A stretch of DNA of 64,000 nt from an uncultured Candidatus Hydrogenedens sp. (GTDB lineage: Bacteria; Desulfobacterota_D; UBA1144): NCBI GenBank assembly GCA_902609885.1, contig CACLTT010000004.1, forward strand, positions 1 to 64,000, in the 5' to 3' direction. Of this stretch, positions 56,560 to 64,000 are shown in pieces; position 1 is the first letter of the stretch; every line of letters starts with the position of its first letter. The notes beneath the pieces were generated by a model. The model saw only the letters and a list, made by a program, of their open reading frames with translations. It was not told the origin of the DNA and did no database searches. Position numbers and translations under genes: made by a program.

Positions 56560-57375
56560 TTACTGTTGTGGTATTTCTTGAACAGAAACCTTAACATCTA
56601 ACTTTTCATCACTTGAACCTATTGCTACACCTTTAATTGGTGCAGCAAATATAGAATCTGGCCCAGAACAAAGCCTTAAGTATCTTTCATTTGTACAACT
56701 ATTATTTGACGGATCAAATGCAATCCATCCAATATCCTTAAAAAATAACTCGACCCACGCATGTGTTGCTTGAGTATCAATATCTGTTGGCAATAAATAT
56801 CCCACCACATATCTTGCAGGTATTCCAGCATATATAGATGCTGAAATCATTAAATGCGCAAAATCTTGACATACCCCTTTTCGAGAATTAAAAATATTTA
56901 TTGCAGGAGTTGATATTTCAGAGGCACCAGATGAATATTCAATATAATCAAAAATCGCAGAATTTAAGGAATGTGCAAAACTAAGTTTATTTTTTTTCTT
57001 ATTCTTAGCTAATAATTTTAAAACAAATTTTTTAATTCCTGAATCAGATTTAGTTAAATCAGTCTCTCTTAAATAAACCAGAGGATTAATTTTTTCTTTA
57101 TGGCCTGATATGATTCCATTATTATCAGGTGTTTGAACCTCACCCTTAACAATAATCTCAGAACTCTTATTATTTTTAGATGTATGGGCGATAATAGTTT
57201 GATCTCCATTTGACTCTATAACTTTTTCACCTATAAAAGCATTCTTAACAGAAACTTTCCAACTTAGTATTTTTACACCTTTAAATTTTGTTGGAAATAA
57301 TTTTATTGACTGAGTTAAACTCTGAAAAGGTTTTTCATATTTATATTTAGTTTTATGATTAATCTTCAAAAACAT
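56560..57375 (-). CDS. transglutaminase-like cysteine peptidase family protein
   Basis: INHKTKYKYEKPFQSLTQSIKLFPTKF, SRKGVCQDFAHLMISASIYAGIPARYVVGYL, THAWVELFFKDIGWIAFDPSNN; start at MFLKINHKTKY. Confidence 0.92.
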   Translation of the reverse strand: MFLKINHKTKYKYEKPFQSLTQSIKLFPTKFKGVKILSWKVSVKNAFIGEKVIESNGDQTIIAHTSKNNKSSEIIVKGEVQTPDNNGIISGHKEKINPLVYLRETDLTKSDSGIKKFVLKLLAKNKKKNKLSFAHSLNSAIFDYIEYSSGASEISTPAINIFNSRKGVCQDFAHLMISASIYAGIPARYVVGYLLPTDIDTQATHAWVELFFKDIGWIAFDPSNNSCTNERYLRLCSGPDSIFAAPIKGVAIGSSDEKLDVKVSVQEIPQQ

Positions 57376-58306
57376 TATATACACCTCCAAAATAAGAGGT
57401 TTCAATACTAGAATGCAGTATGTTGATATCCTCACTATATTGACTTAGGAATTCATTAAATCCATTATCAAATATTTCTTGAACTGTTAAATCTGATAAT
57501 TTTGAAATAATTTTTCTTGAAGTCGAAAACGCTCTGGATTGCAAGTTGTAAAAAGATGATAAGTTCTTTAAATGAATCTTAATATTTTCTAATGAATGAA
57601 AAAGAGATCTCGGATTAGTATTATTAAAAATCAAAAAATGCGCAATTTTTTCTTGAGACATATTTACACCATAAGAAAGTCTAAATTGCGTATAAGCTGC
57701 AAGAGTTCTTAACAATATTCCCCATTCGTAATCATTATCTTCATTTTCTTGATTACTCATTGGCGATATAAAATTTTTAACATCTATAAACCTAATAATG
57801 TTATCTGCTCGTTCAACGTAATAGCCTAAATTCATAAAATCGTAGCAATCACTTGATAATTGTGTGCTGATTATTGCACCTTTTAACATACTGCTTCTTT
57901 GCTTAATCCATGCACATAGGTTTGGTATTTCAGAGGATTTGTATCTACCAGAAGTTAAATCTTGGAGTTCTTGATAGGTTGAATTGACCACGTCCCATAC
58001 CTCACGTGTAATTCTATTTCTTACTTTACGAAAATTTTCGCGTGTAAATCTTACACAATTCTTTATTGAAGACTCGTTTGTTTCATCAAAAAATAAAAAT
58101 TTTTCGACCTTTCTTTGATTAATTTTTGAGTTTTTAAAAAGATATTCATCCTTTACTGCAGTTGAAAGTAAAATTGATTCCCATTCGTTGTTTTTATTAC
58201 TTGTTAAACTAATTCTATAAGCTACATCAAGTAATCTAGAGGTCATCTCAGCCCTTTCAATATATCTACATGCCCAATATAATTTTTCTGCAGTACTACT
58301 TAACAT
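57359..58306 (-). CDS. alpha-E domain protein
   Basis: MLSSTAEKLYWACRYIERAEMTSRLLDV; ERADNIIRFIDVK; adjacent to ATP-grasp and transglutaminase genes. Confidence 0.92.
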   Translation of the reverse strand: MLSSTAEKLYWACRYIERAEMTSRLLDVAYRISLTSNKNNEWESILLSTAVKDEYLFKNSKINQRKVEKFLFFDETNESSIKNCVRFTRENFRKVRNRITREVWDVVNSTYQELQDLTSGRYKSSEIPNLCAWIKQRSSMLKGAIISTQLSSDCYDFMNLGYYVERADNIIRFIDVKNFISPMSNQENEDNDYEWGILLRTLAAYTQFRLSYGVNMSQEKIAHFLIFNNTNPRSLFHSLENIKIHLKNLSSFYNLQSRAFSTSRKIISKLSDLTVQEIFDNGFNEFLSQYSEDINILHSSIETSYFGGVYNVFED

Positions 58307-59712
58307 TATTTTCTAAGAACCCACGTATCTTTAACTCCTCCGCCTTGAGAAGAATTTACTACTAAAGAATTTTCTTTTAATGCAACTCTTGTAAGAGCCC
58401 CCTTAACAACATCAACTTGTCTGCCCATTAAACAAAATGGTCTAAGATCTACATGTCTTGGAGCTAAACCATTACTTGTATGGGTTGGGCATGTTGACAA
58501 ATCTAATGTTGGTTGTGCAATATATTTTTCTGGGTTATTTCTTATTTTTTTTGCAAAGTTTTTTATTTGATTTTTTGTTGCCTTTGGTCCAATCAACATT
58601 CCAACCCCGCCTGAGCCATGAACTTCTTTAACAACAAGATCTTTAATATTTTGCAAGACATATTTTAAATCCTTTTCTCTAGAGCAATTCCAAGTTTTAA
58701 CATTTTCTAAAATTGGCTTTTCACTCAAATAAAACTTAATAATATCTGGAACATAAGAATATATAGCTTTATCATCTGCTATTCCTGATCCTGGAGCTGA
58801 GCAGATAGTAACATTTCCATTTTTGTATGCATTCATGATTCCAGGAACTCCAATTAAAGAATCTTGATTAAAGCACAACGGATCAAGGTAAGGGTCATCA
58901 ATCCTTCTATATATGACATCAATTTTTTGAGGACCTCTTACAGTTCTCATATAGACCTTGTCTTTTTCAGTAAATAGATCTTCGCCCTCGACTAATTCAA
59001 CTCCCATTAAGTCAGCTAAAAAACTATGCTCATAATAAGCACTATTATATGAACCAGGTGTTAAGACAACAATAATTGGCTCTTTATCGCAATTTAGTGG
59101 GGCTATACTAGATAACATCTTTCTTAGACTTAAAGGATAGTCATCAATTGGTTCAATTATATTATCATTAAATAAATCTGGAAACATTGTCATCATAATT
59201 TCTCTATTTTGCATCATATAAGAAACTCCTGACGGTGTTCTACAATTATCTTCTAAAACCACAAACTTGTTCAAAGAAGTTCTAACAATATCTATACCTG
59301 AAATGTGGGAAAATATTTTTTTAGGAGGACTGAAACCAACCATTGAACTTTCAAATGCACGACTTTTATAAACTAATTCTGCAGGAATAATTTTTTCTTT
59401 AATAATATTAGCGCCATTGTAGATATCATGTAAAAAAAGATTCAGGGCTTTTGTTCTTTGTTTAACTCCTGATTCAATAACTTTCCATTCATTAGCAGTA
59501 AAAACTCTTGGTATCATATCAAAAGGTATCATTCTTTCTTCAGGTGATTTTTTTTCATAAACTGAGAATGTAATCCCTATTCTTTTAAAAATCCTCTGTG
59601 CTTCTTGATGTTTTTTCTCATAAGAATTATCTTTGAATGATTGAATCCATTTATCAATTTTCTTATATGGTTTTCTTATAGAACCGTTATTAAGCATTTC
59701 ATTAAATAGCAT
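58306..59712 (-). CDS. circularly permuted ATP-grasp type 2 protein
   Basis: PFDMIPRVFTANEWKVIESGVKQRTKALNLFLHDIYNG, LEDNCRTPSGVSYMMQNREIMM, VVKEVHGSGGVGMLIGP. Confidence 0.93.
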   Translation of the reverse strand: MLFNEMLNNGSIRKPYKKIDKWIQSFKDNSYEKKHQEAQRIFKRIGITFSVYEKKSPEERMIPFDMIPRVFTANEWKVIESGVKQRTKALNLFLHDIYNGANIIKEKIIPAELVYKSRAFESSMVGFSPPKKIFSHISGIDIVRTSLNKFVVLEDNCRTPSGVSYMMQNREIMMTMFPDLFNDNIIEPIDDYPLSLRKMLSSIAPLNCDKEPIIVVLTPGSYNSAYYEHSFLADLMGVELVEGEDLFTEKDKVYMRTVRGPQKIDVIYRRIDDPYLDPLCFNQDSLIGVPGIMNAYKNGNVTICSAPGSGIADDKAIYSYVPDIIKFYLSEKPILENVKTWNCSREKDLKYVLQNIKDLVVKEVHGSGGVGMLIGPKATKNQIKNFAKKIRNNPEKYIAQPTLDLSTCPTHTSNGLAPRHVDLRPFCLMGRQVDVVKGALTRVALKENSLVVNSSQGGGVKDTWVLRK

Positions 59713-61751: not shown

Positions 61752-61782
61752 AAAAAGACCCCTTGGTGTTTAACCAAGGGGG
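61750..61782 (-). terminator. Rho-independent terminator for the 46-aa ORF
   Basis: Minus strand ACCAAGGGG stem region: CCCCTTGGT-gttta-ACCAAGGGG 9-bp perfect stem, followed on the minus strand by TCTTTTTT. Confidence 0.85.
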
Positions 61783-61788
61783 TTATGA

Positions 61789-61929
61789 CTAACTCATAGT
61801 TAGCATTAATCTAGTGAACAGAAGTTTCTGCATTTTTGCTCTTTTAACTTTTTGAAAAGCTTTTAGAGCAGAATTATGCACGTTTGTTACAACACGACCT
61901 CTGCTAGATTTTTGAACAGTCTTCAACAT
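61789..61929 (-). CDS. small highly basic ORF, 46 aa, unknown
   Basis: MLKTVQKSSRGRVVTNVHNSALKAFQKVKRAKMQKLLFTRLMLTMS; GGAGGT SD 7 nt upstream; terminator 6 nt downstream; predicted promoter upstream; no D/E residues. Confidence 0.75.
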   Translation of the reverse strand: MLKTVQKSSRGRVVTNVHNSALKAFQKVKRAKMQKLLFTRLMLTMS

Positions 61930-61953
61930 ATCAAATACCTCCAATAAGATATT

Positions 61954-62053
61954 TGAACTTTTGACGCATGTTCAATGCGAGTCTTTTAATCCATGACTTA
62001 TGGAGGGCTTTTGACTCATGCCCTATGAGGGTCTTTATAGCCATGACCCATGG
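61954..62053 (-). repeat. four contiguous 25-nt repeats, predicted tandem pseudoknot array in the 5' UTR of the 46-aa ORF
   Basis: Exact 25-nt period; each unit has NCAU-N5-AUGN plus 7-nt A-rich linker plus N5 complementary to the loop (GGGUC/GACCC, AGGGC/GCCCU, AAGUC/GACUC, UGAAC/GUUCA). Confidence 0.8.
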
Positions 62054-62060
62054 TTCTTTT

Positions 62061-62090
62061 AATATACCAGATTTATAGAATAATTATCAA
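62061..62090 (-). promoter_or_regulatory. predicted sigma70 promoter of the repeat leader
   Basis: Minus strand TTGATA (62085-62090), N18, TATATT (62061-62066); start site expected near 62054, the first base before the array. Confidence 0.6.
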
Positions 62091-62115: not shown

Positions 62116-62187
62116 AGGCGGTGCCCGGATTCGAACCGGGGTATAACGGTTTTGCAGACCGTCGCCTTACCGCTTGGCTACACCGCC
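62116..62187 (-). tRNA. tRNA-Cys(GCA)
   Basis: Reverse complement GGCGGTGTAGCCAAGCGGTAAGGC...CGGTCTGCAAAACCG...GGTTCGAATCC...CACCGCCT. Confidence 0.94.
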
Positions 62188-62255
62188 ATTAAAGAACTAT
62201 TATTTATACATTAAAAATGTTTTTTAGTCTATTTCCTATTAAAAAATATAAGAAA

Positions 62256-63362
62256 TTATTCGTATACTTTAAGCTCGTTGTATAAAGCGTCTCTTTCAAC
62301 TGGCAAATAGCCTGCATCTTTAATCATCTTTACAAAAAAATCTCTTGTATGACCAATTTCAGATTTTGCACCTGCATCATGGATAATTTTTTCAGAAACT
62401 ATTGTTCCATCAGCATCGGATACACCATAATGAAGAGCAACCTGGGCAGCTTTTTCGCCAAGCGTGATCCAATATGCTTTTATGTATGGAAAATTATCTA
62501 AATATAATCTAGCAAGAGAGTGGACTTTTAGATCATATGAAAAAGGAAAAGGTTTAACTTTACTTAGTCTTGTATTATATGGTTGAAATAAAACTGGAAT
62601 AAAAGCGAAAAAACCATTTGTATCATCCTGTAAATCTCTTAAACGAGAGATATGGTCAATAACATCATTATAGGATTCAAGATGTCCGTATAAAATTGTA
62701 GCATTGGAGGGCAAACCTTGTTTGTGTGCTTCACGGTGAATTTCAAGCCATGAATCACCTGTAGTTTTAGGAGTACAAATTTTTTTTCTAATTTCGGGTG
62801 AAAAAATCTCTGCACCACCTCCAGGTAATGCATCAACGCCAGCAGTCATTAATTCTGAGATTACTTTTCCAATACTTTTACCAGATATTTGTGAAAACCA
62901 GTCTATTTCAACAGCTGTAAACGCTTTAATGTGTGCATCGGGTGCAGCTTTACTTACTTCTTTTACAATTTCCAAATATTTCTCAAATTCCCAATCAGGG
63001 TGTAATCCACCAACAATATGAATTTCTTTTAGCTCATTACTTACAAGAGAAAGGATTTTTTCCATACTCATTTCATAAGCATCAGAATGCCCTTTTGGTT
63101 TACCAAATGCGCAAAACTTACATGATATGGCACATACGTTTGATGGGTTTATATGTCGATTGACAACAAAATAAACTTTCTTTCCATGCATTTTCTCTTT
63201 AACTGATGATGATAAAATTCCTAAGGAGTTTATGTCCTGAGTTTCCATTATAGCTTTAGCATCATTAAAATCTAACCTTTCTTCAGCAATAAGCTTATTT
63301 TTTATTTTTATGAGATTTTGATCAAAACAAAGACTTTCGAACCCATTTAATAATTTTTCCAT
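62256..63362 (-). CDS. mqnE: radical SAM aminofutalosine synthase MqnE
   Basis: YFVVNRHINPSNVCAISCKFCAFGKPKGHSDAYEMS (CxxxCxxC); EIHIVGGLHPDWEFEKYLEIV; YKAYWITLGEKAAQVALHYG-type MqnE sequence. Confidence 0.9.
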   Translation of the reverse strand: MEKLLNGFESLCFDQNLIKIKNKLIAEERLDFNDAKAIMETQDINSLGILSSSVKEKMHGKKVYFVVNRHINPSNVCAISCKFCAFGKPKGHSDAYEMSMEKILSLVSNELKEIHIVGGLHPDWEFEKYLEIVKEVSKAAPDAHIKAFTAVEIDWFSQISGKSIGKVISELMTAGVDALPGGGAEIFSPEIRKKICTPKTTGDSWLEIHREAHKQGLPSNATILYGHLESYNDVIDHISRLRDLQDDTNGFFAFIPVLFQPYNTRLSKVKPFPFSYDLKVHSLARLYLDNFPYIKAYWITLGEKAAQVALHYGVSDADGTIVSEKIIHDAGAKSEIGHTRDFFVKMIKDAGYLPVERDALYNELKVYE

Positions 63363-64000
63363 TTTTTGTTCACCATATTTTTTACATCTTCATTCATATC
63401 TATTACATTAGGGTACCAATCTTTAAATGTTGCATCTATTACAACTTGTCCTTTAAATGTAACTGAGGATTTCTCGACTGCCACATCTTTAAAATACATG
63501 TCAATTGATGGATCAAACCTAGTAAAAATTCCCCACAACATTTCTACATTTGAAAAAATTTCAACATCATCACTAACAATAAAAATAAATTTAAATTCCT
63601 TTAACAAATCATTATTTTTAATTCCTGAAATGGCTTCAATTTTATCAATATTTATTTTTATTATAATTATATTTTTATTTATGACTCTATAATCTGAAAT
63701 AAAGTTAATTTTTTTTCTGGGATCTTCAATTTCTGGAACTTTAAAAGCATCATATGGGAGTTTTTTCCCCTCACCAATACAGTTAAATCCTACTTTACTT
63801 CCAACATTCATTTTTCCACTTGTAAAATCAAGCGTATCCAAGGGTGTGGTTTGGATTAGTGTTAAATCTTTTTGGGGATCAAAGTTTTCACCTAAGTATC
63901 CAAATACTTCAATGATGTCTCTTGAGTTTACAAATTTGGGAACAGTTATTATACATTTTGTAAGTGATAACTGCCCAGTACCCCAGATTGACATCATGGC
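63347..64000 (-). CDS. UbiD-family decarboxylase, C-terminal part (5' end outside window)
   Basis: AMMSIWGTGQLSLTKCIITVPKFVNSRDIIEVFGYLGENFDPQKDLTLIQTTPLDTLDFTS; frame open to the right edge. Confidence 0.85.
   Translation of the reverse strand, partial: AMMSIWGTGQLSLTKCIITVPKFVNSRDIIEVFGYLGENFDPQKDLTLIQTTPLDTLDFTSGKMNVGSKVGFNCIGEGKKLPYDAFKVPEIEDPRKKINFISDYRVINKNIIIIKINIDKIEAISGIKNNDLLKEFKFIFIVSDDVEIFSNVEMLWGIFTRFDPSIDMYFKDVAVEKSSVTFKGQVVIDATFKDWYPNVIDMNEDVKNMVNKKWKNY

Follow-up and report, generated by a model that had tools for sequence, protein, structure and literature searches.

In cyanobacteria, glutamine synthetase is likewise not adenylylated, and small inactivating proteins are used, one of which is controlled by a glutamine riboswitch (PMC6316151). 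The glutamine riboswitches, glnA RNA (Glutamine-I, RF01739) and Downstream-peptide (DP) RNA (Glutamine-II, RF01704), control genes of the same kinds as those behind the RNA described here, and for IF17 and DP peptides they are of the glutamine-ON type (PMC2864571, PMC6316151). They were called restricted to cyanobacteria in a review (PMC6316151), and are known in cultured marine phages (PMC9004378). Here we describe an array of short pseudoknot units in the window, the whole stretch of 64,000 nt that was analysed, from an uncultured Candidatus Hydrogenedens sp. The element is a new, widespread cis-regulatory RNA, previously uncatalogued. A first reading made from the sequence only had recognised no named RNA class in it, and no Rfam family matched the units when all arrays were searched, nor did literature searches yield a description of the element. 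Searching the window at a permissive E-value, we rejected PyrR, miRNA and CRISPR repeat matches, all far below gathering scores.

Minus-strand positions 61954-62053 consist of four contiguous 25-nt units, and the sequence-only reading had both coordinates and letters exactly. Read 5' to 3', these are unit 1 (62029..62053; CCAU-G-GGUC-AUGG-CUAUAAA-GACC-C; covariance model match of 29.5 bits), unit 2 (62004..62028; UCAU-A-GGGC-AUGA-GUCAAAA-GCCC-U; covariance model match), unit 3 (61979..62003; CCAU-A-AGUC-AUGG-AUUAAAA-GACU-C; covariance model match of 34.3 bits) and unit 4 (61954..61978; GCAU-U-GAAC-AUGC-GUCAAAA-GUUC-A; covariance model match), the last with an S2' strand (61955-61958) that overlaps a hairpin enclosing the Shine-Dalgarno (SD) sequence. 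Over all positions and both strands of the window, the array was the best arrangement of four 25-nt units (35/36 pairs versus ≤28 elsewhere). Genomes of the same genus keep the array, and one has a compensatory change in unit 2, from AGGGC/GCCCU to AGAGC/GCUCU (GAGC/GCUC in G003).

The general unit is 24-25 nt long and reads NCAU-n-nnnC-AUGN-7 nt ending AAA-Gnnn, in which NCAU and AUGN form S1, nnnC and Gnnn form an S2 of 4 bp, and the A-rich third loop measures 6-7 nt. Over 67 distinct 25-nt units, the outer S1 pair covaried perfectly (CG 37, GC 21, UA 9) and S2 had three variable columns with up to six pair types per column. Paired cells amounted to 99.1% in these units, versus 71.4% after shuffling and 24-41% when the partners were slid, and the covariation score was 0.658 versus 0.112 ± 0.015 for shuffles. 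S2 complementarity had been proposed over five pairs, of which four hold across the 67 units; the fifth, outer pair is formed in just 25%, so that a five-pair S2 was ruled out, S2 is 4 bp and the base before it is a linker of 0-1 nt. The linker is 0 nt in 24-nt units (e.g., CCAU-CCAC-AUGG). An A-C exception pointed out in unit 3 is real but sits in the fifth S2 column, outside the 4-bp S2, and the worry about tight zero-length junctions is eased by the shorter S2 together with the linker. S1 and S2 cross, which makes each unit a pseudoknot or, with lower probability, a pair of alternative folds. The invariant columns (CAU, C-AUG and AAA-G) suggest a specific triple-helix core or binding surface. 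S1 doubles as a DNA inverted repeat, which would fit a simple DNA repeat or a DNA-binding palindrome (NCAT-N5-ATGN), but S2 covaries at three columns over 67 units, complementarity between loop and tail is unnecessary for DNA sites and the position of the units tracks leaders, making this explanation hardly credible. That RNA structure is under selection and that the unit is an H-type pseudoknot, as claimed earlier, is borne out by many independent homologues and by their covariation, and it is close to certain that the array is a selected pseudoknot RNA.

Loss of complementarity with retention of the repeat, which had been named as an outcome that would refute the claim, was not seen among the homologues examined. 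Two covariance model matches (L218 in G001 and L217 in G011) lay inside a protein-coding frame and were set aside as chance. Carriers, with 1-4 unit copies, were found in the family of the window, whose clade is ‘Deltaproteobacteria TMED58’-like, in SAR86 Gammaproteobacteria, in marine Alphaproteobacteria (single-cell genomes) and in marine phages. In the genome of the window itself, exactly two arrays scored above noise with a covariance model of the unit, the second being two units upstream of gltB (glutamate synthase large subunit); a single-unit look-alike on contig C5 was without S2 pairing and was rejected as chance. Peptide and array were present together in 4/4 further genomes from the genus. 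Elsewhere in the family, other genera have the array with a more diverged peptide, and some members possess gltB but no array. A degenerate pattern fixing CAUG, AAAG, CAU, CAUG and AAAG returned 18 viral contigs and 85 stretches in species genomes. A blind pattern scan with CAU, CAUG and AAAG as its sole fixed letters yielded 98 loci; in 76 of these, the outer S1 pair and all three S2 pairs that the pattern left free were formed, and the remainder were mostly unrelated chance matches in non-marine genomes. When the inner C-G pair was left unfixed, just phage loci with arrays already found were returned, and the invariance of this pair is thus no search artefact. Additional viral pattern variants gave three further real phage loci (L148-150) and otherwise chance matches.

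Around the array in the window, all on the minus strand, a predicted sigma-70 promoter (62061..62090; TTGATA-18-(TG)TATATT; extended −10) has 10/12 matches, against a chance expectation of 1.9 promoter-like sites for the region. Seven bases separate the predicted promoter end from unit 1, and the array would start at about +1. Downstream of the units, a hairpin of 11 bp (UCAAAUAUCUU/GAGGUAUUUGA; 61931..61956) buries the SD sequence GGAGG and takes 2 nt of the S2' of unit 4. It is followed by a gene for a basic 46-amino-acid (aa) peptide (MLKTVQKSSRGRVVTNVHNSALKAFQKVKRAKMQKLLFTRLMLTMS; 61789..61929 including the stop codon; pI 12) with no Pfam match. This open reading frame differs from those of sister species at 3 and 4 codons, all synonymous with 0 nonsynonymous changes, and is thus a real gene. 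An intrinsic terminator with a 9-bp stem and a T tail lies downstream (61759..61781). Promoter, array, SD hairpin, peptide and terminator follow one another in that order, from which a one-gene transcript of ~300 nt is predicted; the element is read as a 5' leader, and not as a source of processed 25-nt units, which had been considered as well. Upstream of the array, positions 62116-63997 of the minus strand hold tRNA-Cys, a CofH/MqnC-like radical SAM gene and a UbiD C-terminal open reading frame, and these genes gave no sign of membership in the element.

Of 26 leaders, 23 had the S2' of the last unit overlapping a hairpin that hides the SD sequence or start codon, where shuffles give an expectation of 10.6 ± 2.4; the count includes related leaders and is not one of independent cases. 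The hairpins are not related in sequence from one group to another (window, UCAAAUAUC..; SAR86 gltB, GCAUGUUAC..; Alphaproteobacteria, ACAUGCU..; phage locus L148, GUAGGAAAC..). The overlap is absent from phage leaders L045, L046 and L059 and weak in gltB leaders of the window clade. In the window, 2 of the 11 hairpin pairs compete with unit 4 and 9/11 remain when S2 is formed, and switching may consequently be modest or opposite in sign. As in riboswitches, a conserved structured RNA thus occupies a 5' leader together with an expression platform. The array lies near the predicted 5' end of the transcript and varies in copy number, as a stack of pseudoknots that protects or presents the mRNA (for stability or ribosome standby) without sensing would, but such a passive role is very unlikely, given the confinement of the units to genes for nitrogen functions or small basic peptides, and the conserved overlap with the SD-hiding hairpin. 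On phage contigs, arrays L044, L045, L052, L059 and L148-150 start 13-16 nt after TATAAATA-like sequences, resembling by their letters T4-type late promoters, and arrays L047, L054 and L055 start directly after a terminator hairpin. Comparison of the peptides and leader regions of phage loci with named phages gave no useful relatives. The contig of L148, which has a two-unit array, also carries a cluster of four tRNAs (L148:2799-3128).

The gltB leaders of the window clade have two units, those of SAR86 two or three. Operon leaders of SAR86 have two or three units directly followed by one or two RF01739 riboswitches (57-72 bits), and then a TorF-family porin and a marine amtB (L072, L134 and L076); in L104, with the same type of leader, glnK (PII) lies between porin and amtB. 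Also in SAR86, one unit and directly thereafter one or two RF01739 riboswitches precede glutamine synthetase GSII or GSI, and in one genome one unit plus RF01739 precedes a basic peptide of 36 aa. Behind arrays of the window clade and of phages are basic peptides of 29-73 aa, and a 64-aa phage protein lies downstream of L148 and L149. In marine Alphaproteobacteria a different peptide of ~40 aa (MLLTKNIIKFNN..RWGYK..), without family match, follows the array (L066-L068 and L137) and has a relative in two phage contigs (L050 and L057), with a two-unit array before each. If the phage protein and the peptides without assigned function are set aside, the genes behind the units are a nitrogen-assimilation regulon, and the element very probably controls nitrogen-linked genes in cis.

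A search for RF01739 in 21 genomes around the window, most of its family among them, found none, and RF01739 was above cut-off in 19/28 array-bearing SAR86 and alphaproteobacterial genomes, which argues for one regulon in which the two RNAs may replace each other. Apparently, the units have the same role as glutamine riboswitches or take their place. In SAR86, RF01739 lies upstream of GSII, GSI and porin-(PII)-amtB operons (L208-L216, L071, L072 and L104), and SAR86 may be the uncultured source of environmental RF01739 links to glutamine synthetase, PII and ammonium transporters. In marine Alphaproteobacteria, a CP-ATP-grasp homologue (50% identity) stands directly behind RF01739 (L224, L225 and L227); in the window, CP-ATP-grasp, Alpha-E and transglutaminase genes (PF14403, PF04168 and PF01841) are found at 56560-59712 on the minus strand, a few kb from the array. 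The placement of RF01739 suggests a nitrogen-related role for this uncharacterised CP-ATP-grasp amide-ligase system. One alphaproteobacterial genome has RF01739 on three contigs with identical scores, and the copy examined (L226; G085:C2:46900-49300) precedes a gene with a phage-structural look.

Two other ways of reading these leaders were weighed. Since the units lie immediately 5' of RF01739 within one leader, and two different aptamers per leader suggest two inputs, the units could respond to a second nitrogen or carbon metabolite (e.g., 2-oxoglutarate), in which case they and the glutamine riboswitch would together act as a two-input device in SAR86. Elsewhere, however, units stand without RF01739 at gltB and peptide genes, and the substitution for the glutamine riboswitch is equally consistent with a shared ligand, and we regard a second metabolite as improbable. 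Somewhat less improbable, though still unlikely, is that the units bind an RNA-binding protein, maybe the arginine/lysine-rich peptide itself, with autoregulation and control of gltB in trans. Repeated simple hairpins can bind oligomeric proteins, and the small units repeated in 1-4 copies, the very basic peptides (pI 10.6-12, hardly any acidic residues) and the invariant CAU/AUG and AAA columns as a possible recognition surface would all fit. Against a protein ligand, the downstream genes also include gltB, amtB operons and glutamine synthetase, the alphaproteobacterial peptide differs in kind, units are juxtaposed with a metabolite riboswitch and phages carry array plus peptide as a self-contained cassette in unrelated genomes.

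The peptides behind the arrays contain almost no acidic residues, and that of the window is homologous to several phage peptides behind arrays (z up to 7.6). Searches of the peptides against Pfam, NCBIfam and PDB returned nothing. Homology to cyanobacterial IF7 was not significant in pairwise comparison (P ~0.1 or worse, no NCBIfam match of the peptides), for which an IF7 sequence that NCBIfam NF052599 (IF7A) identified as such was used, nor by profile, with a score reached by 248/2000 shuffles. GlnE was found above its family cut-off in 0/28 array-bearing SAR86 and alphaproteobacterial genomes (G061-G088). Matches to PF03710 in the window's family were short and weak, with one, in G007, just over the cut-off, and the match examined in G000 lay inside the GlnD gene. 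No full-length GlnE was found in this streamlined family, and sister families of the class retain a full, two-domain GlnE. By analogy with the cyanobacterial factors, a glutamine synthetase-inactivating role of the peptides is plausible.

Taking the computed fold, conservation, gene context, SD-hairpin overlap and GlnE absence together, we infer a translational RNA switch for nitrogen status that works by direct metabolite sensing, a model to which we give slightly better than even credence. The array would be the 5' leader of a small mRNA, in which each unit would fold as an H-type pseudoknot with its A-rich third loop in the S1 groove, and contiguous units are probably stacked end to end. 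Under ample nitrogen, the pseudoknots would be stabilised by a metabolite, for which glutamine or some other compound that reports nitrogen status is the likeliest candidate; the S2' of the last unit would then be held, the SD/start-codon hairpin would lose basal pairs and translation would presumably rise. With no ligand, the hairpin would invade the last pseudoknot and translation would be low. The outputs would be glutamate synthase and the small basic peptide, and in cells without adenylylation by GlnE this peptide may hold glutamine synthetase in check. On this reading, the element is probably a riboswitch in tandem form, with glutamine or a related metabolite as its ligand. Speaking against the model, an aptamer of 25 nt is unusually small, and a ligand-binding pseudoknot of ~25 nt would lie below the size of any aptamer known to us; against a single ligand, the SAR86 unit beside a glutamine riboswitch could have a second, different one. 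We propose only tentatively, at somewhat less than even credence, a new riboswitch class of ~25-nt pseudoknot modules, in 1-4 copies, alone or before glutamine riboswitches, with phage copies steering host nitrogen metabolism in the course of infection.

In the surface ocean, SAR86 and other streamlined clades like it reach very high abundance. If the reading as a riboswitch class is true, SAR86 and further streamlined ocean bacteria set nitrogen assimilation by RNA, and their phages carry the modules along with a homologous peptide. For the array carriers tested, which are without GlnE, the units and the known glutamine riboswitches offer a testable RNA-based route to control of nitrogen assimilation. 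The phage copies point to an unrecognised viral action on host nitrogen metabolism via tiny peptides. Direct binding of a metabolite would make the units a modular aptamer of very small size, of use for structural work and sensors.

Among described systems, type III toxin-antitoxin RNAs (ToxI/antiQ) share tandem pseudoknot repeats with the array. A ToxI-like system was rejected, in agreement with the sequence-only reading, as no ToxN-like endoribonuclease gene lies downstream: the array is the mRNA leader of gltB or a peptide, and the genes behind units are gltB, amtB operons, glutamine synthetase and tiny basic peptides. The STAXI motif (RF01728) is also one small pseudoknot in tandem repeats (PMC2864571), but it lies near DNA-handling genes in Enterobacteriales, often with UUCG tetraloops; its Rfam model did not match the units, which lack that gene context. 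Downstream-peptide RNA resembles the units as a nitrogen-linked leader of orphan short-peptide genes (PMC2864571, PMC6316151), but it is described in marine picocyanobacteria and is not composed of short contiguous units, and the RF01704 covariance model had no match on them. The gifA/gifB products (IF7/IF17) are, like the peptides behind arrays, small and basic, with gifB under a glutamine riboswitch and hosts without adenylylation of glutamine synthetase, but show no significant sequence similarity to them. RF01739 differs from the units in sequence and fold, in size (53 model positions versus 25 nt) and in its absence from the window's family, and its Rfam model hit beside units and never on them. 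It nevertheless shares with them the tandem copies, the marine distribution and a regulon of glutamine synthetase, gltB, PII, amtB and inactivating-factor peptide genes, and adjoins them in SAR86 leaders; the control of nitrogen-assimilation genes that characterises RF01739 is found with the units as well.
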